A DNA stretch of 35,670 nt from a virus, in the IMG/VR virus record IMGVR_UViG_3300021378_000077, positions 1 through 35,670 of that record. One strand, given 5' to 3'. The notes beneath the pieces are model-generated. The model had not been told where the DNA came from and searched no databases. It saw only the letters and a program-made list of their open reading frames with translations. The position numbers and the translations under genes are program-made. Below are positions 12,144 to 34,209 of this stretch, piece after piece. The number at the start of each line of letters is the position of its first letter. Within the stretch, counting starts at the first letter, position 1.

Positions 12144-12518
12144 ATGGCAACATTATTCAAAGGCTTCAGTACAATAGATAAAAATAGGGCTCCTTATACC
12201 CTTACTGACACTGATCTTATAAAAAGAGATTTATTAAATCATTTTTATACAAAAAAAGGCGAAAGAGTAATGAGACCGAATTTTGGAAGTATTATTTGGG
12301 ATATGTTGATGGAGCAAGACAGCCCGACTTTACAAGAAGACATAAAAGAAGATATAGAAAGAATAGTAAATTTGGATCCTAGGGTATCGTTGGAAAATAC
12401 AATTTTATACATAAACGATCAAACCATAAGGGCAGAAGTAATTATAAAATATTATAATATAGAACAATCTGAGACACTATTCTTAGAATTTAGTAGAAGA
12501 AATGCAGAGGACTTTTAA
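12144..12518 (+). CDS. 25: Baseplate wedge protein gp25
   Basis: Wedge and sheath-initiator protein that joins the baseplate to the contractile sheath. At 124 residues it matches T4 gp25 (about 132). The key element is GERVMRPNFGS (residues about 39-49), the EPR-type motif of gp25-like proteins, here with a variant residue in the middle (ERVMRP). The downstream DPRVSLENTILYINDQTIRAEV is also typical. I start at ATG 12144; a TTG at 12129 in the same frame lies upstream of and inside the late promoter and is unlikely. The predicted mRNA begins at or next to this ATG. The stop overlaps the gp6 start (TAATG). Confidence 0.92.
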   Translation: MATLFKGFSTIDKNRAPYTLTDTDLIKRDLLNHFYTKKGERVMRPNFGSIIWDMLMEQDSPTLQEDIKEDIERIVNLDPRVSLENTILYINDQTIRAEVIIKYYNIEQSETLFLEFSRRNAEDF

Positions 12519-15500: not shown

Positions 15501-16684
15501 TTGAATATAAATCTGCAAAGGATAGATTAGATGCAGATATTGTATATGAGATTACAGATGTATTTAAATACTCAGATGGGTATACTGATAATAGAAAAGT
15601 TAAAGTGGCACCAGTAGATACAGATGGAGACATGGTGCCCGATAAGCCATTTCAATTCAATGAATTTGTATCTAGTACAGATTTAATTATATTTGAAAAC
15701 TATACAGACTTTGATGGTTACGTCTACGACAGACCGGCTAGTGGTGTAATTTTAGATTGGAGAGGAGAAACAGATTGGGATAATACTCGGGCTAGTAGCA
15801 ACCCAGCAACTATATCCCCTATAAGTTATTCAGATCCTGTAGAATGGAGTACGGTAAATTATGTTATTGTTGATACTCTAGCATTAGCACAGAAGTTTGA
15901 AAATACTGCTGATCAATATTTTGGTATTAAAATTTATGTTGTAGAAAATGAAAAGTTCTATATAATGACAAGAAGCAGTACGAATGCTAATAGTATTAAT
16001 TTAGTAGAATCAACAGATTATTTTGTAAAAGTAGGAAGAGGTAAAGATCAAAATACTAGATTAACAGACGTAAGACCATGTGTAATGAAATGGGATCATA
16101 AGGCTCCCAATGATGTTAGAATAGATCCTAGTATTAGTAATGTAGTAGAAATGCTTGTTTTAACAAATTCTTACTATGCAGATATACAAAAATATATAAA
16201 TGTACCAGGTACAGTTTATCCTTTAGCACCTACAAGTGATAACTTGGCAAATGAATTTCAAAACTTAGAAGATTTTAAAAATGCAAGTGATACACTTGTT
16301 TATAGAAGTGCAACATTTAAAAGATTATTTGGGGCAGATGCAGATGAAAGTGTGCAGGCTAAATTCAGAGTTGTAAAATTAGCCGGTACTACATTAAGTG
16401 ATAATGAAATTAAAACTAAAGTTATAAAATCGTTTAATAACTATTTTGATGTTAGTAATTGGGAGTTTGGTGAAAACTTCTACTTTACAGAATTGAGTAG
16501 TTATGTACACCAACAGTTAAGTGGTGTAATAGGTAGTATTATTATAGTGCCTAAGAATAACTTAGGTGTATTTGGTGATTTATTCCAAATCAAAGCAGAA
16601 AGCAACGAATTCTTTGTTAATACAGCAAAGGTTTCAGACATAGAAATTATAGATAAAATTACTAAAACAACATTGGCTAATTAA
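12518..16684 (+). CDS. 6: Baseplate wedge protein gp6, about twice the T4 length
   Basis: Main wedge protein that forms the inner ring of the baseplate. The N-terminal part (about 25-120) is clearly gp6: VQYVRTNFPENFNDYIESSE, FIAIIELLAFLSTSIAFRMD, NTRENFLETAERRDSVFKLA and MLGYNPKR. The C-terminal part (about 1215-1388) has the dimerisation-type region with IKSFNNYFDVSNWEFGE and FYFTELSSYVHQQL. T4 gp6 has 660 residues; this one has 1388, with extra beta-rich, Asn/Thr/Ser/Asp-rich sequence from about 480 to 1200. Two Asp-rich motifs there, DSNSDDVAD (786-794) and DTDGDMVPD (1034-1042), resemble calcium-binding thrombospondin-3-type loops. AGAGGA precedes the ATG. It is followed after two bases by the giant gene. 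Confidence 0.92.
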   Translation: MALVNRQNNLFAAEDWKVAYKAFSEVNFQAYDFDTMRTSLVQYVRTNFPENFNDYIESSEFIAIIELLAFLSTSIAFRMDVNTRENFLETAERRDSVFKLARMLGYNPKRNIPASGLMKVTGLKTSEPLQDSQGNQLANQEIFWDDANNPDSYEQFITVLNAAMGTTNRFSAPVKSGKVSGVSTDQYTISTPITSPIAHSFNINVNGVTRGFEIVNGDFFDNEYFYEKQPNPTNDFGMFYRNDGLGLSSSNTGFFLMFKQGELAFEDFNYETPLQNRFQDILKKNINETDVYIQEVNTQGVVETQWTKIPNTVGQTLNYNSKALNTRNLYSVENLNNDGIRIKFPDGNFGNVPTGIFRVWHRTSAGERYSIHPDDAKSLSVTIPYVNATGETYRLSLTFGLESTVNNSLPAESLQNIKSRAPQTYYTQNRMVSAQDYNVFPLSQTTNILKLKATNRTHAGHSRYIDINDPTGTFQSVETYTEDGYLYKDNDPITKTVTVSDNNTPAEVVDNTIVGYLKEQRLNNVIYDTLREKWSNYIPTKFQTDTLNIRWQPLPVATDSTTGYMTETFSSENTVVMVNNTATTKVFQENTFIKFVDTTNIANYKWVRVTGIQNNGALSSGLSTSIGPWTLSDSVNSSWRAEEVIASLRKTFTNSEQVLIENALSNKSTFGIGFDLTDQSYYIINNSDLLKTGTLDIQNAKDTSLSGKDNSWIMLFEYTPIDTSTYKYNVTIRGLSYVVQSANNLKFYNVRSVKVTDGTTQAVKDSITFNTLNYKPGVTESFVWADSNSDDVADAWQSLDNSAYYDPNGLRTNIALRTRDIKWFDVNVTWQSTFGLMRNDIVTDVHTPANIFAVNRFVNASNVSLNAYFDDGNVSTNNVTLSNNDGRISRLPSNLNFTFDNTTFGYDILDDNGNITYKQYNNNTGLTEIYHGNSTIYTYGIDGTSANANAVGRMFLTNANATAGTGTLTYDELDDNFHLFASDTTGAISRDKILVEYKSAKDRLDADIVYEITDVFKYSDGYTDNRKVKVAPVDTDGDMVPDKPFQFNEFVSSTDLIIFENYTDFDGYVYDRPASGVILDWRGETDWDNTRASSNPATISPISYSDPVEWSTVNYVIVDTLALAQKFENTADQYFGIKIYVVENEKFYIMTRSSTNANSINLVESTDYFVKVGRGKDQNTRLTDVRPCVMKWDHKAPNDVRIDPSISNVVEMLVLTNSYYADIQKYINVPGTVYPLAPTSDNLANEFQNLEDFKNASDTLVYRSATFKRLFGADADESVQAKFRVVKLAGTTLSDNEIKTKVIKSFNNYFDVSNWEFGENFYFTELSSYVHQQLSGVIGSIIIVPKNNLGVFGDLFQIKAESNEFFVNTAKVSDIEIIDKITKTTLAN

Positions 16685-16686: not shown

Positions 16687-19600
16687 ATGGCAAATAAAAT
16701 TTATAAAAAATTACCCGGTATTTTACAAACTGATACTATCAAAAATTTCTTTGAGGGTACAGTAGAGCAATTATACAGTAAAGCAAATATAGTACCGTTA
16801 AGTGGATTTGTAGGTAAGAAAAACTCTGTTGATAAAGGCGTAGACGGAACCTGGATATATGAAGAAGACGTAGATAAAGAATTCTACGGTCTTACACCAG
16901 TAATTAATAACACTAACCCTGATACAGAGTTAAGTGAAAATTTTATATTTTATGATGAATTTGTTGCAACACTTAAGAATTATAATGTAGATCTAACAGA
17001 TCAAAATCGCATATTTAAAAATCATTATCAAACATTTTTACCACCAATAGAATTAAACAAATTTTTAAACTATCAAGAATACTATTGGAGTACAACGGGC
17101 CCTACAGCAATATCTATATCCGGTACATTATCAGCACCTATTAATGTAGATGTAGATATACTAGGTAAAAAAGATTATACTCCTACAGGTGGTAAGGCAT
17201 TCCGTAACGGCATGAAAGTTACTTTTGCAGGTGACTATGTAATTAGTTACAATACATACGTAGGTAAAGAGTTTATAGTTGAGGGAGTTGGCCAAAGTAT
17301 ATCACTAGTTGCTGTTGATGTAAGTTATGCAAATGGTATTGCTAATCCTCAAACAAGTAAGGACTATGTTGTTTTAGGCAGAGGGTCTGCAAACAAAAAT
17401 GTGTGGAGTAGGGTAAACTTTTGGTATCACAAAGAAAATTTTACAGATGCAGGTGACGACATACCTGCTAAAACTTCTCAAGCAGACAGGCCTATTTTAG
17501 AATTTAATAAAGACTTAGAACTTTTTAATGCGGGTAAAACAAGTCGAGGTGACGTTGATGTAAGTTCTACATTAATGTACAGTGAAGTTATAGGTCTTGA
17601 TGCAAGTAATGTTACTATAGATACAGTTACTATACAGACGGGCACAAAAATAATATTCCCTAATGAATCTAAAGATATCTCTTCAAATGTATATGTTGCA
17701 ACTGTGGCAAATACCTCACTTTCTAATGCAATCAGTCTTAGTACAGAAACTACCTTAACAGAAGGAGATACAATATTCGTATCCTCAGGTAGTGCAGAAA
17801 TTGGCAAAGAATATTATTATAGCAATAAATTAGTAGAAGCACAAATTAAATCAACACTTAACCAAGCACCTTTATTTAATTTATATGATGACAAGCAACG
17901 ATATCTAGGCGACACAACTATTTTTCCAAATAATAATTTCAAAGGAAATAAAATATTTGGTTTTGAAGTTGGCACTGGCTCATTAGATGAGAAATATAAG
18001 TTGCCACTTACATATAGAGCATTTAAAAATGCCAGTGAGATAAGTTTTGAAAACTTTATGGAAACTACAACTTATAATAATATAGTTTTAGGTAGTAGCA
18101 CATCAACTGATATAGATGGATATTACTATTATAAACTTTTAAAAACAGATTCCGAATACCATAATAACTTTAAAACTGTAAATGATTTTAGTGAACAACG
18201 AGTTGAACGAGTTACAGAAATAACAAGAACAAGATATGATAATTTTAACAATGAATTGGACTTAGGTTGTGTACCTGATGTGCGTAACGCTTCAACAAGC
18301 GGCCGTGATATTATTGTAAGAAAAAATGGTAATATATTTACTGACTTTTCGTATACTAGAAATGACGATAAGATCATTATAGAAAGACAATACATGGCTA
18401 TAGGTGACATATTTGAAACATCATGTCATACATCAAACTTATTAGAACGTACTAACAATACCAGCAGGTTTAGTTTACCGTTAGCATGGAGTAAAAATAC
18501 ATCAAAAGATGAAGTTATTAAGATTTCTGAACCGGAGTATCTCCCTCATTTTAAAAACTATATAGAAAATCAACCTGCATTTACAGGTGAGGTTTTAGGT
18601 AGTAATAATTTTAGTGACATAGAATTATATGAAACACTTGCTACAGATATTGTAAAATCCAATTACGATTTAATACTAGGTGCATTCTTACTAGACGACC
18701 AGCCACACAATATAATAGATGCATTGAGATTTAATGCTAACGAGTATAGTAAGTATAAGAAAAGATTCTTTAAAGAATTAACTGATTATTATAATATTGT
18801 AGATTTCGAAAATATTAGTAATGAAGAAATTTTAGAAAAAGTTTTAAGAAACTTAGTATCATTTAGTGTGGGTAGAAATGTTTTTGGTAATACATACATA
18901 CTTCCTTCCGGTGATAATTATGTTAAAGAAACATTAATAATAAATGATGTAACATTATCCTCTTACACGTTAAATGCCTCAACGGATTTAGAAAAAATAG
19001 AAAATAGTCTTTTAATATACTATATAAGAAATAATGTTAAAACATTAATGACTGTAGGAGAGGAGTATACCTTAACATTTAATCCTCTTACAGTAACTTT
19101 CAAAAATTACAGTCCTGAACTATTAGATGAATTAGAATTTAAGATTTATAATACTAATAGGGATAGTATAGAATGCCCACCAACACCTAGTACAATGGGT
19201 TTATATCACTTGTACACTCCTGCAAAAATTACAGATGATTCTTTTCAAACAGAACAGGAAGTAATTGTAGGCCATGACGGAAGTAGAACACCTACATTTA
19301 ATGATGCTAGGGATGAAATAATATTAGAGTTTGAAAAAAGAATATTTAACTCTGCTAAATCCGAATTTAGAAATAAAGACAGTTTACCAGATATCAATTT
19401 ATTAAAAGTAAGACCAGGAGAGTGGAGATCAGGAACAATGCTGGGCGATACTTTTTATGATGTATTGCAAACAAATTTTGAGAATTGGGTAGTAGAAAAT
19501 AAAGTAGATCCTGTAGTAAACGAGTTTTACGACAACAATAATAAATGGACTTGGAATTATCGAGGCACAACTGATGAACCAGGACATTGGAGAGGCTGGT

Positions 19601-22600
19601 ACGAATATCATTACGACACAGTAAGACCTCATACACATCCTTGGGAAATGTTAGGATTTACAGAAAAACCAACATGGTGGGATACTCAGTATATTACAAC
19701 TGAATACAGCGATTATGGTAGTAATAACATTCCTATGTGGAAAGATCTCGAAAAAGGAATAATTAGACAAGGTGATCGAGAAAACTTTACTGATGGTTCA
19801 TATGACGGAATATATAATCTATATAGAAGAAACAAAGATGGTTTCAGAATAGCACTTTTAGAGAAATTACCTGTTGATAGTAATGCTAATCTCTTAGCAC
19901 CTTATGATATTTCAAGCACAGGCGTATCAACTGTCAAATACAGATGGCAGGAAACACAGGGTAACACTAGTCAAGGTTACAAAACTACAAGTTTTATTTC
20001 AGATGATGGCATAAATGTTCAATTTACAACTGATCATCGATATATCACAAGTTACAATAGTCCTACTTATAGCAGAAGATTAATAGATGAAACGTTATCA
20101 GTGCCAGAGCAGGGTATATTTAAATCTACATATAGAATCCCTAATAACATAAATTACAACACTCTTGGTCTAGGCAATGAAGCAACAACTAATAATACTT
20201 TAGAAAGATATGCTAGTGCTGTTTTAGTAGGCGGTTTACCTTTATATAGTCCTATATCTAACTCAGCATATGGGGATTGGAATTATAATTTAGCATATCA
20301 AAACAGATTTAGTAGAAGTAACGGATATATTTCTAATACAGATACCAATGGTCAGGTTTATTCTGCAACAATAACGTCTGAAATGAGTAACTCTTCAATT
20401 TGGGGAGACAGCACGACACACTCTGGAATAGTGGGTTGGGCATTTGACGGCTTACCAATTTATGGGCCTTACGGATATACAGACGAAAGTAATACTAGTA
20501 GTAGCATTACAAATATTAAAAGTTCATTCCAACTTAAATCTGGAACTAGAAGCTCTGGTCCTGGTGGAGCACATACAGGGGAATTCGTGCAAGATTACGA
20601 ATACAGTCCTACATTATATGCACAACCTGGTACAGCAGATAGATTTAATTCAAGATACGGATACACACCGGAGTCTCCTAGTACTAAAATAAGATATTAT
20701 GTTGTTACAATAGATGATGACGGTAGCGACATGTTCCCTTATGCTGTAGGCGGAACAATGCCAAGTGCGGGGTCATTAACATGGCAAGGGCACACAGTAG
20801 CAGAATTACAAGATTTAGATACAAATAAAAACGGAACTGCTCCTTCAGATGCTACGGCAACATACGCCAGAAAAAGTGAATTAAATAAAACGTTTAGTGA
20901 TAACGGATTAGGGTCTAATCAATGGAGATTCGGTGACGGATCACCTGTAGAAAATGCTTGGAAATATAGTGAAAAATATCCCTTTGCTTATGTAGAAGCA
21001 GTATGTTTGGTAGACCCAGGCGGATTCGCAACATTGTTTAGTGATCCTACTAAAATAATTAAGACTAAAGCAAATAATAAAATATTTGTTAATAAAGATA
21101 CTAGAAAATCTTGGATGTTTAAAGATAAAGAACATTTCGCTATTCACGGTGATAAAGATTTAAATAATAATACTATTACAAATATAGGTTACACACAATT
21201 TATTAACAGTTGGTTAAAATTTCAAGGCTTAGATGTAATAGACAATTTTGTTAATAAATTAAGAAATCTTAATGTTAAATTAGGACACAGATTCTCAGGT
21301 TACATAGATAAAGACACTATGACTATGTCTATGGATCAATATAGTACAACAGGTAGTAGTACAAATTTAATTATACCACAAGAAAATATTACTGTAGATA
21401 TACATAATTCTCCTTATAAATCCAGAAATGTTTATCAAGGTGTTATTATTCAGAAAACTACAACTGGATATAGAGTAAAAGGTTATGATAAAAATTTAGG
21501 GCACTTTAAAATATTAGAAAGTGATCTAACAGGAAGATCTGAAAAGGTACAAGTGGGAGGCGAGGCACACCCATTTGTTGCCTGGAAACAGAATACGTCT
21601 TATAATAAAGGAACTATTGTACAATATAATGAAAGTTATTATGAAGCACGAGACTATATTCCTAAAGCAACAACCTTTAGTAATTTACAATATAAAAAAC
21701 TTAATAAATTGCCACAAATTAATTACAAAGAAGGCGCAGTATATTTAGATACTACAGGAGTAATTAAAAAAGTAGAATACGAAACAGTATATACAACAGA
21801 ACAAGAAGTATTTAATTTCTTAGTATCTTTAGGAAGATATCAGAAGCATTTAGGATACACCTTTAATAATTATGATAATTCAATTAATGAAACTAGAGAT
21901 TGGGTATATTCTGCAAAACAGTTCTTATTCTGGCTACAAGGAAATTGGCAAACAGATACTACTTTAGAGCTATCGCCGATGGCAACAAAGGTATCTTTCG
22001 AATCAACAAAAGGCTTTGTAGCAAAAATTAAACGTAACGAATTCAATATGTTTAATATTATGGATAAAGACGGAAGGTCAATAAATCCAAAAGAATGTTC
22101 TATTAATAGACAAGGACTAGTAATAGAAATTATTCCACCAACTGGAAAAGAAATTTATGCAGTTTGTTTATTTGTAAGAGAAATAGAACATGCAATGGTA
22201 TTAGATAATACTACTGATTTTGCAGATACACTTTTCAATCCTTTGTATAATCAAAGACAAACAAGAATTAAATTAAAAGGAAGTAGGACAGCAAACTGGG
22301 ACGGTAGATTTATAAGTGAAGGATTCTTAATACAAGGAGATTCTCTTAAACCTAACTTAGACAACTTAGCAGAAAGCATGGGAAGGTACCATGAACTAGG
22401 TTTCATACCAGTTGAACGACAAGTTTACGAAACTGCTAGAAGTTTATTTGGGTATCAAGAAAAAGATTACTTAGCAGAACTACAAATAGATGATGATCAA
22501 CAATTTGAATTCTATAAAGGCTTTATACAGAATAAAGGCACTAAAACAAGTTTAAGCAGAATTGGTAGAAGCAGTTCAATCATACAAGGTGATATGGACA

Positions 22601-25600
22601 TATATGATGAGTGGGCTATTAAAGTAGGATCGTTTGGAGATTTAGAAAATAATCAAAGTATTGAACTAGCATTAGAAAAGAAAGATTTTGTACAAGACCC
22701 ACAGTTGTTTACACTATCCTTCCCTGAAGATACAACAGGAGTTGTAGATAGAATAGATGTTTTAAATACAAAACATCAATATTTCGATATACCAGAAGTA
22801 GTAATTACACAATCAACAGATGGCACTCAAGCAAAGGCAACAGCCGTACTGAATAGTGACGGTGAAATTAGTTCTATAAATGTAACAGAACAAGGCACAG
22901 GATATACTGATACTGTAGGACTAACGATTATAACAGGTGAAATAAGTGTAGGTAACGTTTCAAATAGGTTAGCAAGTGTAAATGCTAGATCTTCAAATTA
23001 TATTACATCCATTACAAATAATATTTCTGGTAACGTAGTAAGTAGTAATACAGCAAATATTAATTCTTTAGGAACTATAACGATTGCAGATAACTTTGGT
23101 GCAACAGCATCATTAAATTTAAGTTCTATTACAGATGTAGCAAACATTACATCAGCAATTAATTTAGATGCTACGATTAATGCTAATATTACAGCTCATA
23201 CAATAGAAAATTATATTTCTAATAATGGTAATATTGAGATTACTAAAGGCTTAAAAATATCCGGAGATGATTTTACAATAGGAGGACATGCACCTACACT
23301 AGCAAATCTAAATATTACGGCAGGTAGATATCAACCAAGACAAAGATATGCACTTAATATTGCTAATAATACGGTAAGTTCTGATATTGTAGTTTCTGTT
23401 GATAATGTCAATTTAACAAGTTCTAATTTTATATTTGATGCAGGTGATAGATGGAAAATAAATGCTCCTTCTACAACTACAGGAAATAATTCTGTAAGTT
23501 TTGCTGTAAACACAGGGATTTTAAACGCAAACACATCTTTTGATAGTAATAATATTACAGAATACGATGGACAATATCCTTTTGTTGACGTATACGTTAA
23601 CGGTACAAAAATTACAAATACAGGTTACGAAACAAGATATCAAGTTGCTAACACCACAGCGGTAACCTTCCCAGATGTAGGATTACTACCTGATGAAAAA
23701 ATTATTGCAGGTTCAAATGTTTATATTGTAGAAAGAGCAACAATAGATTTAGAAGATACTTATCAAGGTGATTTACCTGGTAGCACATTAAATGTTAAAG
23801 CAACAACAAATGATGATATTGCAGTACATGTTAAAAGTGTAAGAATTTATGAAATTACTCCAGATGCAAAAGATGATGAAGTAATATTAATTGATATAGA
23901 TGATACATCAAGATTTCTTAAGAAGCCAAGTGGTGTAAGAGAAAGTAATTTATGGCCTAAAACAGGAAATGTTACCTTCCAAGGATTACAAGACAGTAAG
24001 TATAATCCTTTACCTAATGCAGGATATGTAAATGAGTCTAATGTTAATTTTAGTGCTTTTGATCTAGGCGGTGTTGCAGAATTATTTGGTGATAATATAA
24101 GATTTAAACCTACAGGAAATGATTTTATACATGTTGCTAAAAGTGAAAATTTAGATTGGAACGTCTATAAATTAAAACAAGCAAATAAAGGAAATGTAAC
24201 CTTTGTTGAACAAGATGATTTAACAGATACTGCACACTTATATACAGAAAGAAGTTTATTTAATTATGTAGACAGTAATCAATTACTAGAAAATGATTTA
24301 TCTAGATATTTAGATTATGCTCTTGTTATTAAGAAAGCAGACTTAACAGAAGAATTTGTTGTATGGCAGAACGAAGATATTGTAAGAAGGAAATCTGTAC
24401 AGATATCTAACTTTGGTAGAGCAAACATGATTACTGCTAATATAGGAAGTATAGCACCTACAAGAGTTGTTAGTATTTCTAATATAACACCGGCCATAAG
24501 TGCATTTACTAATGCAGATGCAAATATTTTAGGTAGTAATATAGTACAAATTACAGGCTCTCAAAGCACCTTACAGAATGGCGAACAAGTAGAATTCTTT
24601 GTAAGTAGTGTTACCGATAGATCATTTACAACAAGTAATGTAGAATATGTAACACTTACAGATACTGCTAATTTAAACAATTCCTCATTAGTAAATAGAA
24701 CATTAAACTTTACAGAAAATGCAGGTTATGAATTTGCAAACGTAAAATACACTGGTAATGCAAATACTATACCTCTAGAAAGTTTAGAAATGGCTGTCTA
24801 TAGTGCTAATGCAAATAGTACAGTTAGTTACTTTAACGAAAGTAATATTGTTATTCCGGCAACACATTTACCTGCTACTAATACAAGTGTTACATTAACA
24901 CAATTCCATACAGGAAAATTAAAACTTGGTGTTTTAAATATTAATGTACATGGTACAGGCATTGTTGCCGCAAATAATATTGTAAGATTATCAACAGACG
25001 ATTCTAATTCACCATATAGCAATGCATCGTTTACAGTTTCAGATGTAGATACTGCAAATAACACTATTACTATTGATATAGACATTTTTAATAAAAATAT
25101 TGACCTTACAGATGATTTTGATAACCAATTTTTAGACAATGCAGATTTAGGTATTAACGGTTTTGTATTTGAAGAACAACACCCATTACATGCACAAAGA
25201 CATACTATTAGTGATGTAAGTTTAACAGGTTTCACAGTTGAACAGGCAAATGTCACAGCAAATATAGATTCTGGAAACTTATCTTACGGAATATTTGGTA
25301 AAACACAGATTACTGCCAATGATCATGATTTAACGTCTGGAGAATTAGTAAAACTAGATGCAAATGCATATTCAGGTTTTTATTATGTAGAAAGTGCAAG
25401 TAAGGATACATTTAAGATTAATGCTCCTTACAATGCAAACGTGGCCGCTAACGGAAATATCATACCTGAAGGAATTACAATAACAACTACAGAAAATCAC
25501 GGTATAAATGTATCTTATACTGGTAAACGTGTTGCAGTACATTTAGCAAACCCTAGATATTACAACCAAGTTTATACAGTAGGTGATGTTACAGCAAATA

Positions 25601-28600
25601 CAATAATAATTGATAATTCTTTTGCTTTTTATCCGTATTCCGTTGTTCAAAATGAAGCAATAGTTACTACATTAGACCATGGTGCTGTTACATTGAACAA
25701 TTCTTTAATTAATATTAATAATGTTAACTCACCTGAATCTATAAAAGAAGAATTTAACAGGCAAATAGATTTAAGAAGAGGAATTATAGACGACGAAGGC
25801 ATGACTATCCCAATGCTTAACAATATTGAGTGTAGTGAAAAGGTTTATGCAGGAATACCAGCAACCGAAATACAAGGTTCCGGGCCTTATGTTCCAAGAT
25901 CTCCAAATATGGAAGGCCTCACATTAAAAGGTATGATGCCTTTTGCTACAAAAGATGATATGTTGTATGGTTTCCCTGGAGAATCTGTAGATGATGTAAT
26001 TATGGGAGACCACAGGCAGAAACAAGGTGATTACCCAGGATTTGGACTTAATAATCCTAAAGTATCAGGTAAAAATATAGGACAGGCTATACCACTAACG
26101 CAAATACCACTTTATGATATTAAAGGAAGCGGAAAAACTAGACAAAGAACAGACTATGTTGGCGTACCTATTTTAGATCCAACCAAAGCCTTTGCATCAC
26201 TGGATGTAAAATTATGCGATATTTGTGCACCTGCACCACCACCAGTATCATCAAGTGTAACAAATGCTAATGGTAAAAAATATATTAATAAAAATTACGG
26301 TGGTACTATATCTGTAAGTGCATCAGGTAATGGTAAAGGTAAAAGATCTTGGCAAAATGCGTATTCAGGCTATTATGCAACTACAGGAACTAAAAGAGGA
26401 CAGTTTACACAATACGGTGGTAGCAGACACATGCCAGCAGATGCATTATTAGGTGCAATCACATGGGCTGATAACGGTAGCAGAAATACATTTAATTTAA
26501 GTTGTACATTTAGCGAAGCAGGAACCTTCTATGTACATGCATATTACTCGGCGAAAAGTGCAGGCGGTACAAAATCTATTACAGTAGGTGGTGCTTCTAT
26601 AACACCTAAATATTTAGGTAAAACAGATAGTAATTATTCTGGTGCAGGAGCAATATATGAATTAATTGTAACTGCAGGACAAACAGTGACAATCAGTGGT
26701 GTTGCACAATGGGGTAGTAATCATTGGAATTCTGTAGGATTCCATTTAAGTACTAGATCAGGTTCATTAAGTACGACAGCAACAATTGAAGATCCTGCAA
26801 CGTCAACACCAACAGAGCCGGCAAATACAAGTACAAATAGTTCTTTAGTACAAACTGAATTTTTAGAACAATCTACAACAGGCTGGGCACAAGGAAATGC
26901 AGGAAATAAAGACGAATGGCTCTTTAATCCAGGTGCAAGTGGTACTATAGAAGTATTATTCGATATGTATAGTGGTGCAGACGGCATTGAGGTATATCAA
27001 GGAGACCAAGTTACACAGTCATCATTAATATCCTCAACTCAACCACAGAATTTAAGTGCATTAACAGAAGCAGAAAAAAATGAAATTTTAACTAACGCAC
27101 AAAAACCAGGCTCTAGAAGAAATACAGGAGCATCAGGAGTTATAAGAAATTACATACAAAGTTCTATATCTGCACCAAATAATACTGGTGTAAAATATGG
27201 TGGAGCAATAAGATTTAACTTTAATAAAGGCTCCGGCGATTTTATAAAAATTGTTGTATATAAAACAAGTAGTGTTTATAGATTCTTATTAAAATACCCT
27301 AAAGTAGGCCCTAATATTCCAAATCCTGGAGTAAATCCGACCACTACAGGGCCTTGTGATACTGCAAGTAACGGTAATACAACAGTATCAGGAAATAGTT
27401 TGCCACAAACACCGGTAAACACACCTGTAGGAGGCACAACTACTGGAGGCTCTACTGGTGGCTCTACTGGTGGCTCAACTGGAGGCTCAACTGGAGGCTC
27501 AACAGGCGGTGGCGTCAACAGAGGCGGTGGCGGTGGCGGAAAAAGCGGCGGTGGCGGCGGTTCTGTTAGCAGAATACAGGCTCAGGCACAAAAAACATAC
27601 GGACCGGTATATACTCCACCTCCTACAGCACCGTTCCCAACACCTCAACCTGTAGTAGTGAGCCCTATTAATCCATATATTCCGCCTATAGCGAATATAC
27701 AGCCCATGCCTATACAGGTACCGTTTACACCTTTTATTGTACCACAAGTTATTTCAAAACTTATTAGTGGTAAAGGAGTAAAACTTAGGACTGCTGGAGG
27801 AAGAGACCCTAGTGCATTCTTTAGTGCCAACTTCGGTGATGTTGGGTTACCTAGTTTAGCAGGATATAGATTTATACCAAATGTTTTAAGAAAAACAGTA
27901 AAAGTAACCAAAGCAAATAATATTGGTAGATTTATTCCACTAGAAGGCAATCAATATGTTAATACTACTATGCAAAAGGTTACAGGCGGCAAGAAAATAC
28001 CTCTAGCAACACCTTTAGCAGACAAGATTCCACTTAAACCTAGCCCATTAAGAGCTATAGACGTTAAAGAGTATAATTATAACTTTATTACTAAATTAAA
28101 TAATCCTTATTTTAGTAAATCTGATAGTGCAGTATCTTTTACAGCCCAAAAGATTGGTGGAGACTTAATATTACCAGATGGAAGTAGTATTAGAAACGTA
28201 TTAGGTAGTGCAGGTGGTATAGATGCGAATAATATTAGTATAAGATATCCTGGAAGTGAGATAATAGACTTTGTAAATCGAGGACCTAACACTCCGGATT
28301 ATGATTATCTACCAGCAGACTCCACGATACCAACAGAAATATCACCACCGGATACAGACAATATAGATTTTAATAGAGATGTAAATCTTTCTATACAACC
28401 TTTACTAAGAACACCCGAAGGTAACTATATACCTGGTGGACCTAAAGTAGGATGTCACTTAACACAGCCTACACCGGGTATATCTATACCATTAGACAAT
28501 ATGACAGGTATTAAACCAGGTGATGAATTAATTATTAACAACAGAAAATTTGTTTTTCCAGGAAGTGATCCTAAAGTAGTAGTAAACACTCTAAAATGTG

Positions 28601-31600
28601 GACCTAAAGGCAGTGGAATAGAAATTAAAGATACTAAAGTTAACGGCCAAGATGCAATTAGAATCAGTAGTTGTAGTAATGCACCAATAATTATTAGAGA
28701 TGGTTGTGCAGGTGGCGTATATAAAGAAGTATTAGACTTCCACGTTGTCAGAGGGTTCGAACAAAGTGTAACTGATACCAGCAATACAATGGTCTTACCG
28801 GCGATATTTAGTTCTAGCGATACGCCTATAACGGTAGGATATGTCGGATACGGTCCAACTGGAACAAACTTAGGTCCTATACAAGACGATACAACTACTC
28901 CTATACAGACCGGGGCCGATGGTGCTATATTATCAAGCAGTACATCAAGTAGATCAACAGGTGGTAGTGGCTATTCTGTAGGAGATAGATTAAGACTAGT
29001 TGGAGGTACTCCAGTAGCAGATCCATATGGTAGTATTACAGAAATATGTATTGATGCTCCGGGCACCGGTTATTCTGATTCTGCAAATATTGTAGTTTAT
29101 ATTGGTGACGGCAATACTCCTGGTAGTGGTGCAAAAGCAGGTAGTGTAATTCTAGATGATCAAGGTGCCATTACAAATATTTTAATGGTAAGTGGCGGAG
29201 AAGGATATGATATAACTAATCCTCCTGCAGTAAGAATTATAGATTTAAATGACACTGGGAGTGTTTTAACCGCAACAGCACATGCCAAAGTATCCTCAGG
29301 TGAGAGTGTACCTCCTAGAGTAGCAAAGTTTGTTGTTACATCTATAGACGCAGTAGGAACAATCACAAGTTTACAAATTATAGATAGAGGTATCTACAAA
29401 ATATTCCCAAGTGATTTAACAATGGGTATACCTTTAGAATATGATTATGTAAATCTAGGAGACGAAACTGGTACAGATGCAGATGGAAACTTTTATCAAG
29501 GCACTGGATTAGGTCAATTTGATCCTTTAAATAATGGAAAACGTCTTGGAACACCTGGTGGATATGACCCAATTAACGACACATTAGGTGGCGGGTCAGG
29601 TGCAAGAGTATTCTTAACAGCAAGAGAGATTCCTGACTGTTCTGAAAAAGGCAATGCAAGAGGACAATTAGGACTACCAGAAAGAATTACAGAAATTAAC
29701 ATACCAGAAGACATTGCGGCATGTTTCAATAACAATTTAGCAGGTCCAGGTTACGATGATGATTTATATTTAGAAACAGAACCGGTAAACGATTGTATCA
29801 CAGCAATTAAGATAAGACATCCGGGTTTTGATGGTATAAGGTTAGATGAAGACACACCTGGATTCTTAGATAGATTAGGATTACCTAGAGGTGACTACAA
29901 CCAAGATATGTTGTGTATGGTTTCAACGGTTATTACAAAGTCTTATGAACAAGATAGAGACAATAGAGCAGAAAAAACAACTGGATTAGATATTATAGAC
30001 GTAGACGGGTATGGTGTGTCAGGATTTGCCACAACTGAAGCAACAACTCTTGAAATAAATTGTATAGATAATTTACGAACTGATCCAAATAGTTTATTTG
30101 GTGTTGCAGGTAACACAGGTGGTGGCGACTCTGCAAATAATGTAGGATTAAATTTTACAACTGATTTATATCAATACGAATTAAGAACTTTACAGGGTAC
30201 ATCTGTAAACACAATAAATTTACAACAGAATTGTGATGTATATTACTTAGAAAGTCATAGATTTGCAAATACTTCTGTAATAGACAGTCATACACATATT
30301 GATGACGGTAACGTAAATATTACAGACTACGATAAAGTATGGGTAGACGAATATAATACATCTGTAGGCTGGGCTTATTTAGAATCCAATGTAATACAAA
30401 AGCAAAAAGAAAATTTAGTTGATTCTAAGTTTGTAAATAATACTATAATATACGATTCCGAAACAGGCGAAAAAGACTGGGACTTATATGAATATGATCC
30501 ATATAAAGGCGTAATACCAGGGTTTATAGATAAAGAAATAACATTTAAAAGCGAAAACGACCCAGTTGTATATAATACAGCAAGAACAAGATTTGGTAGT
30601 AAAGACGTTGGTAAAATTTGGTGGGACACTAGTACAGTTAGATATTATTGGTATGAACAAGGCACTAACAGAGAACGTTGGCTAAATTGGGGTAAAACTT
30701 TCCCTGGTAGTAGTATTACATTATATGAATGGGTAGAAAGCAAGGTTTTACCACAGTCCTATCAAGGAACAGGTAATCCTAAAAATACAGTAGACTATAT
30801 AACAGAATCATTTAAAGACCCAATAACAGGTACTAATCAAACTTGTTATTATTTCTGGGTACAAAATGTAAGGGAGTTAGATACTCATGTAAGTAAGGAT
30901 TTAGGAAGAACACATAATACATTTGAACTTGCTAGACTACTTGCTGATCCTATTGGACAAGGTTTACCTTTAATAAGTTTTATTAGTGACTCGTCTTTTG
31001 TTTTAACAAACGCAAGTTCTATTATTAAAGAACAAGATCAAAATTTACAAATAAATTTAAGTAGAAACTTAAATCCAATTGGTCAAAAGCATGATGCATG
31101 GAAACTTCTTAGAGAAGGTGACAATAATAGTATAATACCGGAAGACTTAGGAAACAAATTAATAGATAGTTTATGTGGCGTAGATGCGGATGGCAAAACA
31201 GTTCCAGATACATTACTAAGTGAAGTAGAAAAATATGGTGTTGCATTTAGACCTAGACAAACATTATTCAAAGATATTAAACAAGCAAGAAGAGAACTTG
31301 CTTACACATTAAACGAAATATTAGCAGATGTAAAATTAAATAGTGAATACGTTAATTGGGATAAAGAATTACCAACATCCAGAACGTATATAGAAACAAC
31401 AAATTGGTTTAATACTATAAGAACTGATGCATCTAATAATAAAAAAATACGATATGATAGTTCTTATAAACCAATATTAAATGTTGGAAGTATATCTGAA
31501 CTTACAGCAATTACAGGCAGTATCAAAGATGGTGCAATTATACAAGTACAGCCAAATATTACTAGTAGATATGAACTATGGAAATATGTTGCAGGCACAA

Positions 31601-33528
31601 ATAAATTCACACAGATTGCTATTGAAAACGAAACTGTAAAATTAAGAGATACCTTATTTACAGATAACTCTAACGTCACAATGCAAACAGAATTGAGAGC
31701 ATTGTTAATTGCATTAAGAGACAACGTATTTAAAAATTCAGTACTATGGAACAGATTATTCTTTGCACTTTTAAAATATTCAGCAGTTGAGCAAGAACAA
31801 TTAAGTTGGGCATTCAAAACAAGTTATGTGTATGTAGAAAAATCAGAAGAAGATTTAGTTAAGGTAGACGGATTTAAAGTAGATAATTTTGATAAAGTAT
31901 TAAATTACTTTGAAGATGCTAAACCTTACACCTCAAAAATTAGAGAATATAAAGATGGTAAGAGCCCTGCTAAAGAACTAATACAATATACACAGATAAG
32001 TGATTTTGATAAACCACCTTATCCTGATAGTGTAACCGGTAATGTCAGAATATTAGACGATTTCTTAGCGGCAGACTCAAACATTATACAGACAAATAAT
32101 AATTATGTCAAGTATTATGGCTTCAGTAGTAATGCTAATGTAGATACACCTATAAGAAAAATTAAATCAACAATTAAATTTGATAGAACTAATACAGTAC
32201 TAACAGACTTTGAACCTTTAGTTAGTGCTAATGCAGACTATACAAAGACAGATACTAATACAAGTATAGCGACAAATATTGTAACACTTATGGGCTTTGG
32301 TAATACACATAACAGTAATACTTTTATAGCAAGTAATGTATATTATAGATATGCTGACAGAGTATTTAAATATGATACAGAAGTACAAGCACAATTTAAA
32401 GTAGATCTAGATAGTTACTTTAGTGTAACAGACTCAATTGCTAATGCAAATATTATAGGTAGTTCTGCAAATATCCTAGCGGCCATAAATGCAGGAAATC
32501 TTAATACAACATTAGACTTGGTAAGCTCTAAAGTAGGCGGTAAATTTAGAGGAACAACGTTAGACGCAAATATATTTACTAAAGTGGTAGCAGGTGCAAG
32601 TACATCAGACTACCAAACACAATTTGGATTTGGTAGTGAACCGTTTGGTAAAGTAGTATATGATAATCCTATAGAAGTAGATAATTACATAGGTTCTTTT
32701 ACAGAGGCAAGTACACTTACAGATGATAATGTGGCTTACGAAGGATTTGACGGAGTAACTTTCCAAAGAGTAGGTTACGGCGAACGTGTACCAGAAGAAA
32801 TGGCATTGTTTGATCCTTATGAAACACTTATTGTAAATGTTTTAACTGATACAAATTCTAAGTATGCAAACGGAGTTATAATAGCAAATTCTACTACATA
32901 CCAGCCACCATTTGCGTACACAGGTAATACAGTAAATAGATTTGGAACAAATGTTATACTAGACGGTAATGATGTGGACTCTACTGGTAATATACATTTT
33001 GCAAATGGAAGTGTGCAACCTAATAAAACTGTATTTGCAGGTACTGTGATTACTCCTAGTACAGATGCATCAACAGTAGAATATCAAGTAACAATGGATT
33101 TATTTGGTAATACAGATTATATGAGAAAATTACAGGACGGTAGTGCAAATACACTACTAACTGCTAACTTACTGATGTCAGATAATGAGATATCAGTTGC
33201 AAATGCAAATATATGTGCTGAGCCAACAGCAACAGTAAACGGTGTTGTTTGGGTAGAGAGTGAAAGAATAGAATACACAAGAATAGATTTAGCAAATAAT
33301 AAGTTATCAGGATTGATTAGGGGTACAAGCGGTACAACTATACAAGACTGGTACAGTAATAATACTGTTATTGTTTGGGACGGAAGTGAATCTCAAATAT
33401 TTAAAAACTTTGTTGATAATTCTGTAGATAGTAATGTTTGGTTAGACGTTGGAGCAACAAGTTTAACAGATAAGGGTAATGTAAGTGCTAATACATCGGT
33501 GATGAATTTCTTACATAATCTTAAATAA
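16687..33528 (+). CDS. Giant baseplate/tail structural protein (gp7/gp8 position)
   Basis: One uninterrupted frame of 5613 residues (about 600 kDa), directly after gp6, where T4 has genes 7 and 8. The N-terminus (YKKLPGILQTDTIKNFFEGT, EQLYSKANIVPLSGFVGK) is of a type I know from large structural proteins next to gp6 in marine T4-like phages. Regions visible: conserved N-part with VWSRVNFWYH (239-248); YHYH-like domain about 1150-1357; a second conserved part about 1420-2050 with a carbohydrate-binding-like WKQNTSYNKGTIVQYNESYY (1633-1652) and FYKGFIQNKGT; long Asn/Thr/Ser-rich beta region about 2050-3170; CDIC and Pro hinge (3177-3186); beta module about 3190-3360; Gly-rich linker 3582-3625; beta repeats about 4085-4240; conserved C-part with KPYTSKIREY (5079-5088) and WVESERIEYTRI near the end. 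No Shine-Dalgarno is seen. The call as wedge protein is from position; receptor binding is inference. Confidence 0.8.
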   Translation: MANKIYKKLPGILQTDTIKNFFEGTVEQLYSKANIVPLSGFVGKKNSVDKGVDGTWIYEEDVDKEFYGLTPVINNTNPDTELSENFIFYDEFVATLKNYNVDLTDQNRIFKNHYQTFLPPIELNKFLNYQEYYWSTTGPTAISISGTLSAPINVDVDILGKKDYTPTGGKAFRNGMKVTFAGDYVISYNTYVGKEFIVEGVGQSISLVAVDVSYANGIANPQTSKDYVVLGRGSANKNVWSRVNFWYHKENFTDAGDDIPAKTSQADRPILEFNKDLELFNAGKTSRGDVDVSSTLMYSEVIGLDASNVTIDTVTIQTGTKIIFPNESKDISSNVYVATVANTSLSNAISLSTETTLTEGDTIFVSSGSAEIGKEYYYSNKLVEAQIKSTLNQAPLFNLYDDKQRYLGDTTIFPNNNFKGNKIFGFEVGTGSLDEKYKLPLTYRAFKNASEISFENFMETTTYNNIVLGSSTSTDIDGYYYYKLLKTDSEYHNNFKTVNDFSEQRVERVTEITRTRYDNFNNELDLGCVPDVRNASTSGRDIIVRKNGNIFTDFSYTRNDDKIIIERQYMAIGDIFETSCHTSNLLERTNNTSRFSLPLAWSKNTSKDEVIKISEPEYLPHFKNYIENQPAFTGEVLGSNNFSDIELYETLATDIVKSNYDLILGAFLLDDQPHNIIDALRFNANEYSKYKKRFFKELTDYYNIVDFENISNEEILEKVLRNLVSFSVGRNVFGNTYILPSGDNYVKETLIINDVTLSSYTLNASTDLEKIENSLLIYYIRNNVKTLMTVGEEYTLTFNPLTVTFKNYSPELLDELEFKIYNTNRDSIECPPTPSTMGLYHLYTPAKITDDSFQTEQEVIVGHDGSRTPTFNDARDEIILEFEKRIFNSAKSEFRNKDSLPDINLLKVRPGEWRSGTMLGDTFYDVLQTNFENWVVENKVDPVVNEFYDNNNKWTWNYRGTTDEPGHWRGWYEYHYDTVRPHTHPWEMLGFTEKPTWWDTQYITTEYSDYGSNNIPMWKDLEKGIIRQGDRENFTDGSYDGIYNLYRRNKDGFRIALLEKLPVDSNANLLAPYDISSTGVSTVKYRWQETQGNTSQGYKTTSFISDDGINVQFTTDHRYITSYNSPTYSRRLIDETLSVPEQGIFKSTYRIPNNINYNTLGLGNEATTNNTLERYASAVLVGGLPLYSPISNSAYGDWNYNLAYQNRFSRSNGYISNTDTNGQVYSATITSEMSNSSIWGDSTTHSGIVGWAFDGLPIYGPYGYTDESNTSSSITNIKSSFQLKSGTRSSGPGGAHTGEFVQDYEYSPTLYAQPGTADRFNSRYGYTPESPSTKIRYYVVTIDDDGSDMFPYAVGGTMPSAGSLTWQGHTVAELQDLDTNKNGTAPSDATATYARKSELNKTFSDNGLGSNQWRFGDGSPVENAWKYSEKYPFAYVEAVCLVDPGGFATLFSDPTKIIKTKANNKIFVNKDTRKSWMFKDKEHFAIHGDKDLNNNTITNIGYTQFINSWLKFQGLDVIDNFVNKLRNLNVKLGHRFSGYIDKDTMTMSMDQYSTTGSSTNLIIPQENITVDIHNSPYKSRNVYQGVIIQKTTTGYRVKGYDKNLGHFKILESDLTGRSEKVQVGGEAHPFVAWKQNTSYNKGTIVQYNESYYEARDYIPKATTFSNLQYKKLNKLPQINYKEGAVYLDTTGVIKKVEYETVYTTEQEVFNFLVSLGRYQKHLGYTFNNYDNSINETRDWVYSAKQFLFWLQGNWQTDTTLELSPMATKVSFESTKGFVAKIKRNEFNMFNIMDKDGRSINPKECSINRQGLVIEIIPPTGKEIYAVCLFVREIEHAMVLDNTTDFADTLFNPLYNQRQTRIKLKGSRTANWDGRFISEGFLIQGDSLKPNLDNLAESMGRYHELGFIPVERQVYETARSLFGYQEKDYLAELQIDDDQQFEFYKGFIQNKGTKTSLSRIGRSSSIIQGDMDIYDEWAIKVGSFGDLENNQSIELALEKKDFVQDPQLFTLSFPEDTTGVVDRIDVLNTKHQYFDIPEVVITQSTDGTQAKATAVLNSDGEISSINVTEQGTGYTDTVGLTIITGEISVGNVSNRLASVNARSSNYITSITNNISGNVVSSNTANINSLGTITIADNFGATASLNLSSITDVANITSAINLDATINANITAHTIENYISNNGNIEITKGLKISGDDFTIGGHAPTLANLNITAGRYQPRQRYALNIANNTVSSDIVVSVDNVNLTSSNFIFDAGDRWKINAPSTTTGNNSVSFAVNTGILNANTSFDSNNITEYDGQYPFVDVYVNGTKITNTGYETRYQVANTTAVTFPDVGLLPDEKIIAGSNVYIVERATIDLEDTYQGDLPGSTLNVKATTNDDIAVHVKSVRIYEITPDAKDDEVILIDIDDTSRFLKKPSGVRESNLWPKTGNVTFQGLQDSKYNPLPNAGYVNESNVNFSAFDLGGVAELFGDNIRFKPTGNDFIHVAKSENLDWNVYKLKQANKGNVTFVEQDDLTDTAHLYTERSLFNYVDSNQLLENDLSRYLDYALVIKKADLTEEFVVWQNEDIVRRKSVQISNFGRANMITANIGSIAPTRVVSISNITPAISAFTNADANILGSNIVQITGSQSTLQNGEQVEFFVSSVTDRSFTTSNVEYVTLTDTANLNNSSLVNRTLNFTENAGYEFANVKYTGNANTIPLESLEMAVYSANANSTVSYFNESNIVIPATHLPATNTSVTLTQFHTGKLKLGVLNINVHGTGIVAANNIVRLSTDDSNSPYSNASFTVSDVDTANNTITIDIDIFNKNIDLTDDFDNQFLDNADLGINGFVFEEQHPLHAQRHTISDVSLTGFTVEQANVTANIDSGNLSYGIFGKTQITANDHDLTSGELVKLDANAYSGFYYVESASKDTFKINAPYNANVAANGNIIPEGITITTTENHGINVSYTGKRVAVHLANPRYYNQVYTVGDVTANTIIIDNSFAFYPYSVVQNEAIVTTLDHGAVTLNNSLININNVNSPESIKEEFNRQIDLRRGIIDDEGMTIPMLNNIECSEKVYAGIPATEIQGSGPYVPRSPNMEGLTLKGMMPFATKDDMLYGFPGESVDDVIMGDHRQKQGDYPGFGLNNPKVSGKNIGQAIPLTQIPLYDIKGSGKTRQRTDYVGVPILDPTKAFASLDVKLCDICAPAPPPVSSSVTNANGKKYINKNYGGTISVSASGNGKGKRSWQNAYSGYYATTGTKRGQFTQYGGSRHMPADALLGAITWADNGSRNTFNLSCTFSEAGTFYVHAYYSAKSAGGTKSITVGGASITPKYLGKTDSNYSGAGAIYELIVTAGQTVTISGVAQWGSNHWNSVGFHLSTRSGSLSTTATIEDPATSTPTEPANTSTNSSLVQTEFLEQSTTGWAQGNAGNKDEWLFNPGASGTIEVLFDMYSGADGIEVYQGDQVTQSSLISSTQPQNLSALTEAEKNEILTNAQKPGSRRNTGASGVIRNYIQSSISAPNNTGVKYGGAIRFNFNKGSGDFIKIVVYKTSSVYRFLLKYPKVGPNIPNPGVNPTTTGPCDTASNGNTTVSGNSLPQTPVNTPVGGTTTGGSTGGSTGGSTGGSTGGSTGGGVNRGGGGGGKSGGGGGSVSRIQAQAQKTYGPVYTPPPTAPFPTPQPVVVSPINPYIPPIANIQPMPIQVPFTPFIVPQVISKLISGKGVKLRTAGGRDPSAFFSANFGDVGLPSLAGYRFIPNVLRKTVKVTKANNIGRFIPLEGNQYVNTTMQKVTGGKKIPLATPLADKIPLKPSPLRAIDVKEYNYNFITKLNNPYFSKSDSAVSFTAQKIGGDLILPDGSSIRNVLGSAGGIDANNISIRYPGSEIIDFVNRGPNTPDYDYLPADSTIPTEISPPDTDNIDFNRDVNLSIQPLLRTPEGNYIPGGPKVGCHLTQPTPGISIPLDNMTGIKPGDELIINNRKFVFPGSDPKVVVNTLKCGPKGSGIEIKDTKVNGQDAIRISSCSNAPIIIRDGCAGGVYKEVLDFHVVRGFEQSVTDTSNTMVLPAIFSSSDTPITVGYVGYGPTGTNLGPIQDDTTTPIQTGADGAILSSSTSSRSTGGSGYSVGDRLRLVGGTPVADPYGSITEICIDAPGTGYSDSANIVVYIGDGNTPGSGAKAGSVILDDQGAITNILMVSGGEGYDITNPPAVRIIDLNDTGSVLTATAHAKVSSGESVPPRVAKFVVTSIDAVGTITSLQIIDRGIYKIFPSDLTMGIPLEYDYVNLGDETGTDADGNFYQGTGLGQFDPLNNGKRLGTPGGYDPINDTLGGGSGARVFLTAREIPDCSEKGNARGQLGLPERITEINIPEDIAACFNNNLAGPGYDDDLYLETEPVNDCITAIKIRHPGFDGIRLDEDTPGFLDRLGLPRGDYNQDMLCMVSTVITKSYEQDRDNRAEKTTGLDIIDVDGYGVSGFATTEATTLEINCIDNLRTDPNSLFGVAGNTGGGDSANNVGLNFTTDLYQYELRTLQGTSVNTINLQQNCDVYYLESHRFANTSVIDSHTHIDDGNVNITDYDKVWVDEYNTSVGWAYLESNVIQKQKENLVDSKFVNNTIIYDSETGEKDWDLYEYDPYKGVIPGFIDKEITFKSENDPVVYNTARTRFGSKDVGKIWWDTSTVRYYWYEQGTNRERWLNWGKTFPGSSITLYEWVESKVLPQSYQGTGNPKNTVDYITESFKDPITGTNQTCYYFWVQNVRELDTHVSKDLGRTHNTFELARLLADPIGQGLPLISFISDSSFVLTNASSIIKEQDQNLQINLSRNLNPIGQKHDAWKLLREGDNNSIIPEDLGNKLIDSLCGVDADGKTVPDTLLSEVEKYGVAFRPRQTLFKDIKQARRELAYTLNEILADVKLNSEYVNWDKELPTSRTYIETTNWFNTIRTDASNNKKIRYDSSYKPILNVGSISELTAITGSIKDGAIIQVQPNITSRYELWKYVAGTNKFTQIAIENETVKLRDTLFTDNSNVTMQTELRALLIALRDNVFKNSVLWNRLFFALLKYSAVEQEQLSWAFKTSYVYVEKSEEDLVKVDGFKVDNFDKVLNYFEDAKPYTSKIREYKDGKSPAKELIQYTQISDFDKPPYPDSVTGNVRILDDFLAADSNIIQTNNNYVKYYGFSSNANVDTPIRKIKSTIKFDRTNTVLTDFEPLVSANADYTKTDTNTSIATNIVTLMGFGNTHNSNTFIASNVYYRYADRVFKYDTEVQAQFKVDLDSYFSVTDSIANANIIGSSANILAAINAGNLNTTLDLVSSKVGGKFRGTTLDANIFTKVVAGASTSDYQTQFGFGSEPFGKVVYDNPIEVDNYIGSFTEASTLTDDNVAYEGFDGVTFQRVGYGERVPEEMALFDPYETLIVNVLTDTNSKYANGVIIANSTTYQPPFAYTGNTVNRFGTNVILDGNDVDSTGNIHFANGSVQPNKTVFAGTVITPSTDASTVEYQVTMDLFGNTDYMRKLQDGSANTLLTANLLMSDNEISVANANICAEPTATVNGVVWVESERIEYTRIDLANNKLSGLIRGTSGTTIQDWYSNNTVIVWDGSESQIFKNFVDNSVDSNVWLDVGATSLTDKGNVSANTSVMNFLHNLK
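20134..20757 (+). other. YHYH-like domain inside the giant protein
   Basis: Residues about 1150-1357. HSGIVGWAFDGLPIYGPYGY (1245-1264) is the most typical segment of the YHYH family, and FVQDYEYSPTLYAQPGTADRFNS-type sequence, a following GYTPESPSTKIRYYV and MFPYAVGG complete the expected order. The four-residue YHYH motif that gives the family its name should lie just before the first segment, but here the stretch reads VYSATITSEMSNSSIWGDS, without paired histidines. The fold may be kept while a metal site is lost. Function of the family is poorly known. Confidence 0.6.
26254..26766 (+). other. Beta-sandwich-like module in the giant protein
   Basis: Residues about 3190-3360, just after a CDIC motif and a Pro-rich hinge. 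It is rich in alternating hydrophobic/Thr/Ser strands with aromatic residues (FYVHAYYSAKSAGG, AQWGSNHWNSVGFHL), like surface-exposed ligand- or sugar-binding beta modules. I cannot name the family. Confidence 0.35.
27442..27501 (+). repeat. Five 12-bp tandem repeats coding TGGS, start of a Gly-rich linker
   Basis: Five units of ACTGGAGGCTCT type (with third-position changes) encode (TGGS)x5 at residues 3586-3605, continuing as a run of Gly with few Lys/Arg/Ser to about 3625. This is a flexible linker inside the giant protein. The stretch is much richer in G+C than its surroundings. Confidence 0.9.
28939..29406 (+). other. Tandem beta repeats of the G-x-G-Y type in the giant protein
   Basis: Residues about 4085-4240 contain successive units built as G-[ST/E]-G-Y, a strand, then a strand of the form D-x-G-x-I-T-x-I. 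Copies: GGSGYSVGD, PGTGYSDSANIVVYIG, GGEGYDITNPPAVRI and a weaker DRGIYKIFP. A single related unit (EQGTGYTDTVGLTI, near 2069-2082) lies far upstream. Such repeats are common in phage tail and fibre proteins. Confidence 0.6.
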
Positions 33529-33548
33529 ATACGCACATAACCAATAGT

Positions 33549-33556
33549 GATAAATA
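33549..33556 (+). promoter_or_regulatory. T4-type late promoter after the giant gene
   Basis: GATAAATA, identical to the octamers at 4738 and 12131, in the short gap after the giant gene. Its last A is six bases from the A of an ATG at 33562, the same geometry as at gp25. A related AATAAATA (33524-33531) overlaps the stop codon of the giant gene. Confidence 0.7.
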
Positions 33557-33561
33557 GTATG

Positions 33562-34209
33562 ATGGAAGAGAGCAAAGATAAAATGAACGAACAAAAAGAT
33601 TTACAGCCTAATGAAAATGCCGGTTTAAATATGAACGGACACATATTAATCAGAGATAAAGAAACTGGTGAAGAATTAGTTAATAAAAGAAATGCCATTC
33701 ATTATGGTAATATGGCATATATTGTAGCAAATGCTCTTAACGGAACCGATAATGCTAGGGTATATTACATGGGTTTCGGCAACGGTGGAACGAGTGTTGA
33801 TACTACAGGAAAAATAATTTACAAGTCACCTAGAGTCAGTGAAGCATTCCAATCTTCTGCAAGTTTATATAGTAGAACTTATAAAAAAATTGTAGGAGCA
33901 TCAGGTGATGCAACAAACCAAATAGAAGTAATTACAGGAACTTCTTATTCTGATATTAAAGTTACAGCAACATTAAGTTATTCCGAACCAGCAGATCAAG
34001 ATTTATTTGATACAAGTACAAATAACGATGGTTCTTATGTTTTTGATGAATTAGGACTTTTTAGTTATCCAACTGATCCTTCACCTAGTGACGGCAGTGA
34101 TCCTATAGAAACAAGTAGAATGTTGACTCATGTTGTTTTTCATCCTGTACAAAAAGCACAAAATAGGGTAATAGAAATAATATATACAGTTAGAGTTCAA
34201 TTGAGTTAG
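33562..34209 (+). CDS. Probable small virion/baseplate protein
   Basis: A protein of 215 residues that I do not recognise with certainty. The N-terminal 20-25 residues are charged and look disordered; the rest is beta-rich (GHILIRDKETGEEL, YYMGFGNGGTSVDTTGK, VTATLSYSEPADQDLF) and ends with HVVFHPVQKAQNRVIEIIYT, in the manner of marine-phage structural proteins near the wedge and fibre genes. Possible starts are GTG 33547 (inside the late promoter, unlikely), ATG 33559, ATG 33562 and ATG 33583. I chose 33562 because the predicted late transcript begins there, but 33583 is preceded by GGAAGAG and is a good alternative. The stop is followed closely by the fibre-like gene. Confidence 0.7.
   Translation: MEESKDKMNEQKDLQPNENAGLNMNGHILIRDKETGEELVNKRNAIHYGNMAYIVANALNGTDNARVYYMGFGNGGTSVDTTGKIIYKSPRVSEAFQSSASLYSRTYKKIVGASGDATNQIEVITGTSYSDIKVTATLSYSEPADQDLFDTSTNNDGSYVFDELGLFSYPTDPSPSDGSDPIETSRMLTHVVFHPVQKAQNRVIEIIYTVRVQLS

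Follow-up and report, generated by a model that had tools for sequence, protein, structure and literature searches.

The window, by which we mean the whole stretch of DNA that was analyzed, is a virus record of 35,670 bases, a fragment rather than a whole genome. Its plus strand carries, in order, genes for a virion protein, gp53, a second virion protein, a gp5-type hub, lysozyme, gp25, gp6, the giant protein that is the subject of this study, a protein of 220 aa and a fiber-like protein. The minus strand encodes a late sigma factor of the gp55 type as well as SbcC- and SbcD-like proteins (gp46/gp47). The gp53-type wedge protein lies at 5695-5994 (+) (phrog_7145, E 2.4e-19; PF11246 weak) and the gp5-type hub protein at 8658-10691 (+) (phrog_13211, E 6.3e-33). 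Between these two, at 5998-8658, is an 886-aa virion protein (phrog_11190) with no Pfam match, and relatives have a virion protein at this site too. Between lysozyme and gp25 the baseplate operon is interrupted by a minus-strand alpha/beta-hydrolase gene (11457-12065), and in some relatives this site is taken by other small genes on that strand.

The gp25-type wedge gene (12129-12518, +; PF04965, E 2e-10) is followed by a gp6-type baseplate wedge gene encoding 1,388 aa (12518-16684, +; phrog_10646, 1056.8 bits; phrog_219, E 1.4e-21), and the giant gene begins after a spacing of only 2 nt, at the gp7 position of the wedge operon (16687-33528, +; 5,613 aa; phrog_10938 family). Downstream of the giant is the 220-aa gene (33547-34209, +; phrog_11259), a companion with matches in 60 jumbo-phage records, which from its conservation and place is probably a baseplate partner. 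The last gene, tail-fiber-like and truncated where the record ends (34219-35670, +), matches the PA5oct fiber gene only at its N-terminus.

Neither strand of the window contains TATAAATA, the late-promoter word of T4 (0 occurrences vs 10.9 expected from shuffles), and ATAAATA is the most depleted 7-mer of the window. Two variants, GATAAATA at 4738-4745 (+) and AATAAATA at 4695-4702 (-), lie in the intergenic stretch, flanked by divergent genes, that precedes the structural operon and adjoins the gp55-type sigma gene, and these may be the late promoters. An exact TATAAATA does occur 43-47 nt upstream of the giant gene of Munch and of that of Vibrio phage 2.275.O (L006:14892 and L015:14474), so the giant may have its own late promoter there.

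Conserved blocks and variable inserts

Pairwise comparison of the giant with its homologues resolved three conserved blocks, A, B and C, whose order is constant in all homologues, with the differences lying between the blocks. Block A spans residues 1-1087 (16687-19947, +) and was delimited by blastp and HMM comparison with jumbo-phage homologues, while block B (residues 1409-2083; 20911-22935, +) and block C (residues 4572-5352; 30400-32742, +) come from sequence comparison with homologues.

The insert between A and B contains a YHYH domain at residues 1165-1340 (20179-20706, +; Pfam PF14240, E 1e-18, 68.4 bits against a cut-off of 25). YHYH domains are predicted metal-dependent hydrolases in which the histidine motifs form the predicted metal site (PMC7824862). 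The window domain has lost its Tyr-His-Tyr-His motifs, with GQVYSA and RYYV in their stead. These histidine motifs are replaced throughout the clade of the window and partly retained in three other relatives (L041, L042 and L096). With these motifs missing from the window and its near relatives, the domain is here more likely to serve in binding or as a spacer. The YHYH domain sits elsewhere in the chain in L096 and in the cyanophage giant discussed below, and its presence at different places in different giants marks it as a mobile module.

Within block B, a small domain resembling chitin-binding type 5/12 domains was found at residues ~1628-1673 (21568-21705, +), with a Pfam score below cut-off (PF02839, E 1.4e-4). 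Its structural model matches chain 8fqc_P1 of the Milano baseplate (Z 7.6, rmsd 1.4, 45 aligned), and in several relatives a similar stretch, as judged by eye, is inserted again slightly further on. The end of block B carries the motif FYKGFIQNKGT at residues 1942-1952 (22510-22542, +), in which KG is invariant in 77 relatives. The AlphaFold model of block B reached a pLDDT of 75, and that of the region around the KG motif (residues 1857-2081) was of low confidence, with a pLDDT of 64. When block B was compared with viral models, the named good matches were YHYH-domain proteins and the Atu_ph07 giant. Neither the block B model nor the KG-region model matched a gp7-type chain, a negative result that does not speak for a different fold.

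The largest variable part is the B-C insert of ~2,490 aa (residues 2084-4571; 22936-30399, +), which has no homologue in sequenced phage isolates and gave zero matches among 50,697 phage records. The spacing between B and C is ~200 aa in RaK2-type phages and ranges from 224 to ~2,500 among IMG/VR members. The insert holds a Gly/Ser/Thr-rich linker of tandem repeats (TGGS units and a Gly tract; 27442-27557, +), followed by a Pro-rich stretch, and it carries a G-Y repeat module in common with the cyanophage giant.

The blocks are not always joined in one gene. On the L044 contig (L318:7926-18130), the giant is present as two adjacent genes encoding ~8,400 aa together: a 5,027-aa gene with blocks A and B and, behind it, a frame of 3,390 codons that carries block C, has its own ribosome-binding-like site and shows the same C-terminus as in the giants. 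In L042 the frame length is identical to that in L044. Joining the two ends of the giant in a single chain is therefore not obligatory.

In the window, the frame starts with ATG and runs through 5,613 codons with zero internal stops. At ~33% G+C and a stop frequency of ~0.075 per codon, simple arithmetic puts the odds of such a frame arising by chance at ~10^-190. A preliminary description of this DNA had claimed a single unbroken frame of 16.8 kb, and this claim holds beyond the window, with a complete, open giant in three independent IMG/VR contigs: L009 (5,568 aa, 80% identity to the window giant), L010 (5,645 aa, 77%) and L013 (6,445 aa, 46-48%). Their architecture is identical to that of the window giant, including the YHYH and B-C inserts, and L013 is still longer, having an additional ~490-aa insert near residue 215.

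When the window giant was compared with L009 and L010 by the Nei-Gojobori method, dN/dS was 0.09-0.23 in all segments, the part that lacks outside homologues among them. Blocks A, B and C gave 0.09-0.17, the A-B insert 0.21-0.23 and the length of the B-C insert 0.10-0.22. The YHYH domain taken separately gave 0.21-0.39 and is the fastest-evolving part in the comparison with L009. Since dN/dS is low over the full giant, the whole length is translated and held by selection. The 5,613-codon frame is thus real: purifying selection acts on all of it, and independent contigs preserve it intact.

A widespread family of jumbo-phage virion proteins

In a profile search the two halves of the giant match phrog_10938 (E 3.7e-248 and 3.8e-73), a family annotated as 'virion structural protein'. 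The N-terminal 900 residues matched 57 jumbo-phage records by tblastn, and hundreds of IMG/VR contigs carry family members. Named members are PA5oct gp355, RaK2 ORF070, GAP32_230, CBB_236, Munch_262, SCTP-2 gp140 and Atu_ph07 gp180, with XacN1 as a divergent one. The jumbo-phage members share with the window the blocks A, B and C in order, the place after gp6 and gp25 and, mostly, a phrog_11259 companion in the genome. They differ from it in length (3,326-4,555 aa, and ~3,300 aa in RaK2-type phages, vs 5,613 aa) and in the size of the B-C insert (~200-1,490 aa vs ~2,490 aa), and a degenerate YHYH domain between A and B marks the window. The window giant is among the longest of the family because of its large B-C insert. 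The gene is thus not confined to this phage but is an extended member of a family that is found widely.

The surroundings of the gene are strongly conserved. Among IMG/VR loci fetched with block B, gp6 is immediately upstream of the giant in 75 of 75, and the companion gene is downstream in 33 of the 35 loci with enough sequence. The locus order is the same or nearly so in PA5oct, Munch, GAP32, RaK2, XbC2, CBB, Phosso and Vibrio phage 2.275.O, and Atu_ph07 and XacN1 keep the gp25-gp6-giant part of it. The preliminary description had placed a single giant gene at the gp7 position of a T4-like baseplate operon, in the order gp25-gp6-giant; synteny bears out the position, and the profile matches to PF04965 and to phrog_10646 and phrog_219 confirm the order.

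Relatives of the giant are present in virions. The PA5oct gp355 record bears an ESI-MS/MS note, and CBB_236, the CBB giant, was represented by 21 peptides in virion mass spectrometry (PMC5259590). In phAPEC6, gp245 has a mass of 381.88 kDa and 17 unique peptides, and its gene lies directly after that of the wedge protein gp244 (PMC7247149); we count it as a homologue by place and mass. Peptides of the kind that the preliminary description had proposed looking for in the virions of relatives are on record for CBB_236 and phAPEC6 gp245.

Comparison with gp7, gp8, gp10 and VrlC

In T4, gp7 comes directly after gp6, which is the position held by the window giant. The two are alike in this place and, as far as a short motif can show, in the register of FY..KG, and they differ in size and company: T4 gp7 has 1,032 aa, the window giant is about five times longer, and T4 has separate gp8-gp11. 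In cyanophages and pelagimyophages, gp7 appears to be substituted by VrlC (PMC7029224). The giant of the T4-like cyanophage ACG-2014b, gp87, has 3,544 aa and its gene follows gp6 directly; by place and size it can tentatively be equated with VrlC. Its core aligns with the T4 gp7 core in hhalign (Prob 95.8, E 7e-9) at an FY..KG[T/I]..S motif, and the gp7 profile finds the cyanophage giant only at this KG-motif site (E 1.4e-4). The VrlC-type giant resembles the window in being a giant virion gene after gp6, with a YHYH domain, G-Y repeat modules and a KG motif in the same register. In contrast, the HMMs of blocks A, B and C have no match in ACG-2014b gp87, and the core similarity is not significant.

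In the jumbo giants the end of block B holds the invariant KG, with F-Y and helices before it, and its register corresponds to that of the KG[T/I] of T4 gp7 and VrlC. A KG-region profile built from 35 sequences aligned with the cyanophage core in this same register, with a best hhalign E of 0.058, which for this short motif is not significant. Against gp7, hhalign likewise gave no significant alignment for the KG region or for any of the three blocks. These comparisons are a weak test, as T4 gp7 against P2 gpI, its structural counterpart, also fails. The N-terminus of the giant against gp7 and VrlC-type N-termini was not significant in hhalign either, and was left unused as its register is unlike that of the block B motif.

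The preliminary description had further suggested that residues 1-1100, 1400-2050 and 4300-5613 might correspond to gp7, gp8 and gp10. This assignment is not supported: blocks A, B and C have no significant profile similarity to T4 gp7, gp8, gp9, gp10 or gp11, and PDB sequence searches with pieces and block profiles matched only a chitin-binding domain. The sole gp7-like signature, the KG at residue 1950, falls inside the segment that had been given to gp8. The remark that the window has no gp8-gp10 is true of the window and proves little, because the window is a 35,670-base fragment. More informative are ten complete or nearly complete relatives, in which genome-wide profile searches found neither gp7 nor gp8, with the T4 control positive in both, a result compatible with strongly diverged copies. 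The separate gp7 and gp8 genes that would have spoken against the preliminary description are thus not detectable in these genomes. For phrog_438, a gp8-related profile, Atu_ph07 and Phosso were positive only on repeats inside their giants. In PA5oct a gp10-type C-terminal domain is found in a separate gene. The fiber-like ORF at 34219 was considered as evidence of gp10 in the window and rejected, since it matches only the N-terminus of the PA5oct 'gp10-like' gene.

Probable role in the baseplate wedge

Since neither gp7 nor gp8 is found in the ten relatives, the giant most likely does the job of gp7, as VrlC appears to do in cyanophages. We favor, with a probability of roughly 0.7, the reading that it is a structural baseplate-wedge protein that replaces T4 gp7 and whose inserts tune contact with the host surface. 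The giant would be a late product, present at one to a few copies in each wedge, and would build the wedge together with gp6, gp25 and gp53 where T4 uses gp7. The scaffold would consist of blocks A, B and C, and from it the degenerate YHYH domain, the chitin-binding-like domain in B and the ~2,490-aa B-C insert would hang, probably facing the cell and tuning contact with its surface. The carbohydrate-binding-like and YHYH modules fit such a role, and adhesion by the inserts is plausible, though unproven.

The giant could alternatively be an adhesin or fiber anchor on the rim of the baseplate, the role of gp7 falling to another, unrecognized gene such as that of the 886-aa virion protein at 5998-8658 or one outside the window. 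The carbohydrate-binding-like and YHYH modules would suit this arrangement as well, as would the companion and fiber genes that come next after the giant and the absence of significant gp7 similarity in A, B and C. However, a rim adhesin does not sit easily with the strict adjacency to gp6, as seen for T4 gp7 and the cyanophage giant, with the KG motif in register, or with profile searches that found no other gp7 candidate in ten complete genomes, and we consider it unlikely. A fusion of wedge proteins, joining gp7 with gp8 and/or a gp10-like protein and perhaps cleaved after synthesis, seems more improbable still: separate gp8 is missing from the ten relatives, and the adjacent A+B and C genes of the L044 lineage indicate that parts can work as separate chains, but no block resembles gp8 or gp10, and the gp10-like domain of PA5oct is in another gene. 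That the window, a metagenomic contig, presents an assembly artefact or several genes joined by chance is ruled out by the comparison with relatives, where the frame is open in independent contigs at 46-80% identity and cultured-phage homologues have identical block order, and by a dN/dS far below 1 throughout.

The reading of the giant as a wedge protein in place of gp7 admits a bolder form, to which we give a low probability. A gp7-type core might be hidden in the chain, with the KG helices at residue 1950, >1,900 residues before them and 3,600 after. A single chain would then serve as wedge core, periphery and host-contact surface, replacing gp7 to gp11, and the B-C insert would be an exchangeable, built-in receptor-binding part.

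The phrog_10938 family is known by sequence, not by role, and is almost unstudied; a literature search for described giant phage proteins returned nothing useful. Although jumbo phages of the RaK2/PA5oct/Atu_ph07 group are common, annotations of their giant go no further than 'virion structural protein' or 'hypothetical'. A very large ORF at the gp7 position is typical of this family rather than the oddity of a single phage. A scaffold at the gp7 position with an insert of variable length could provide a concrete hypothesis for these phages, that of a wedge without recognizable gp7 or gp8 in which host-contact domains would be swapped.
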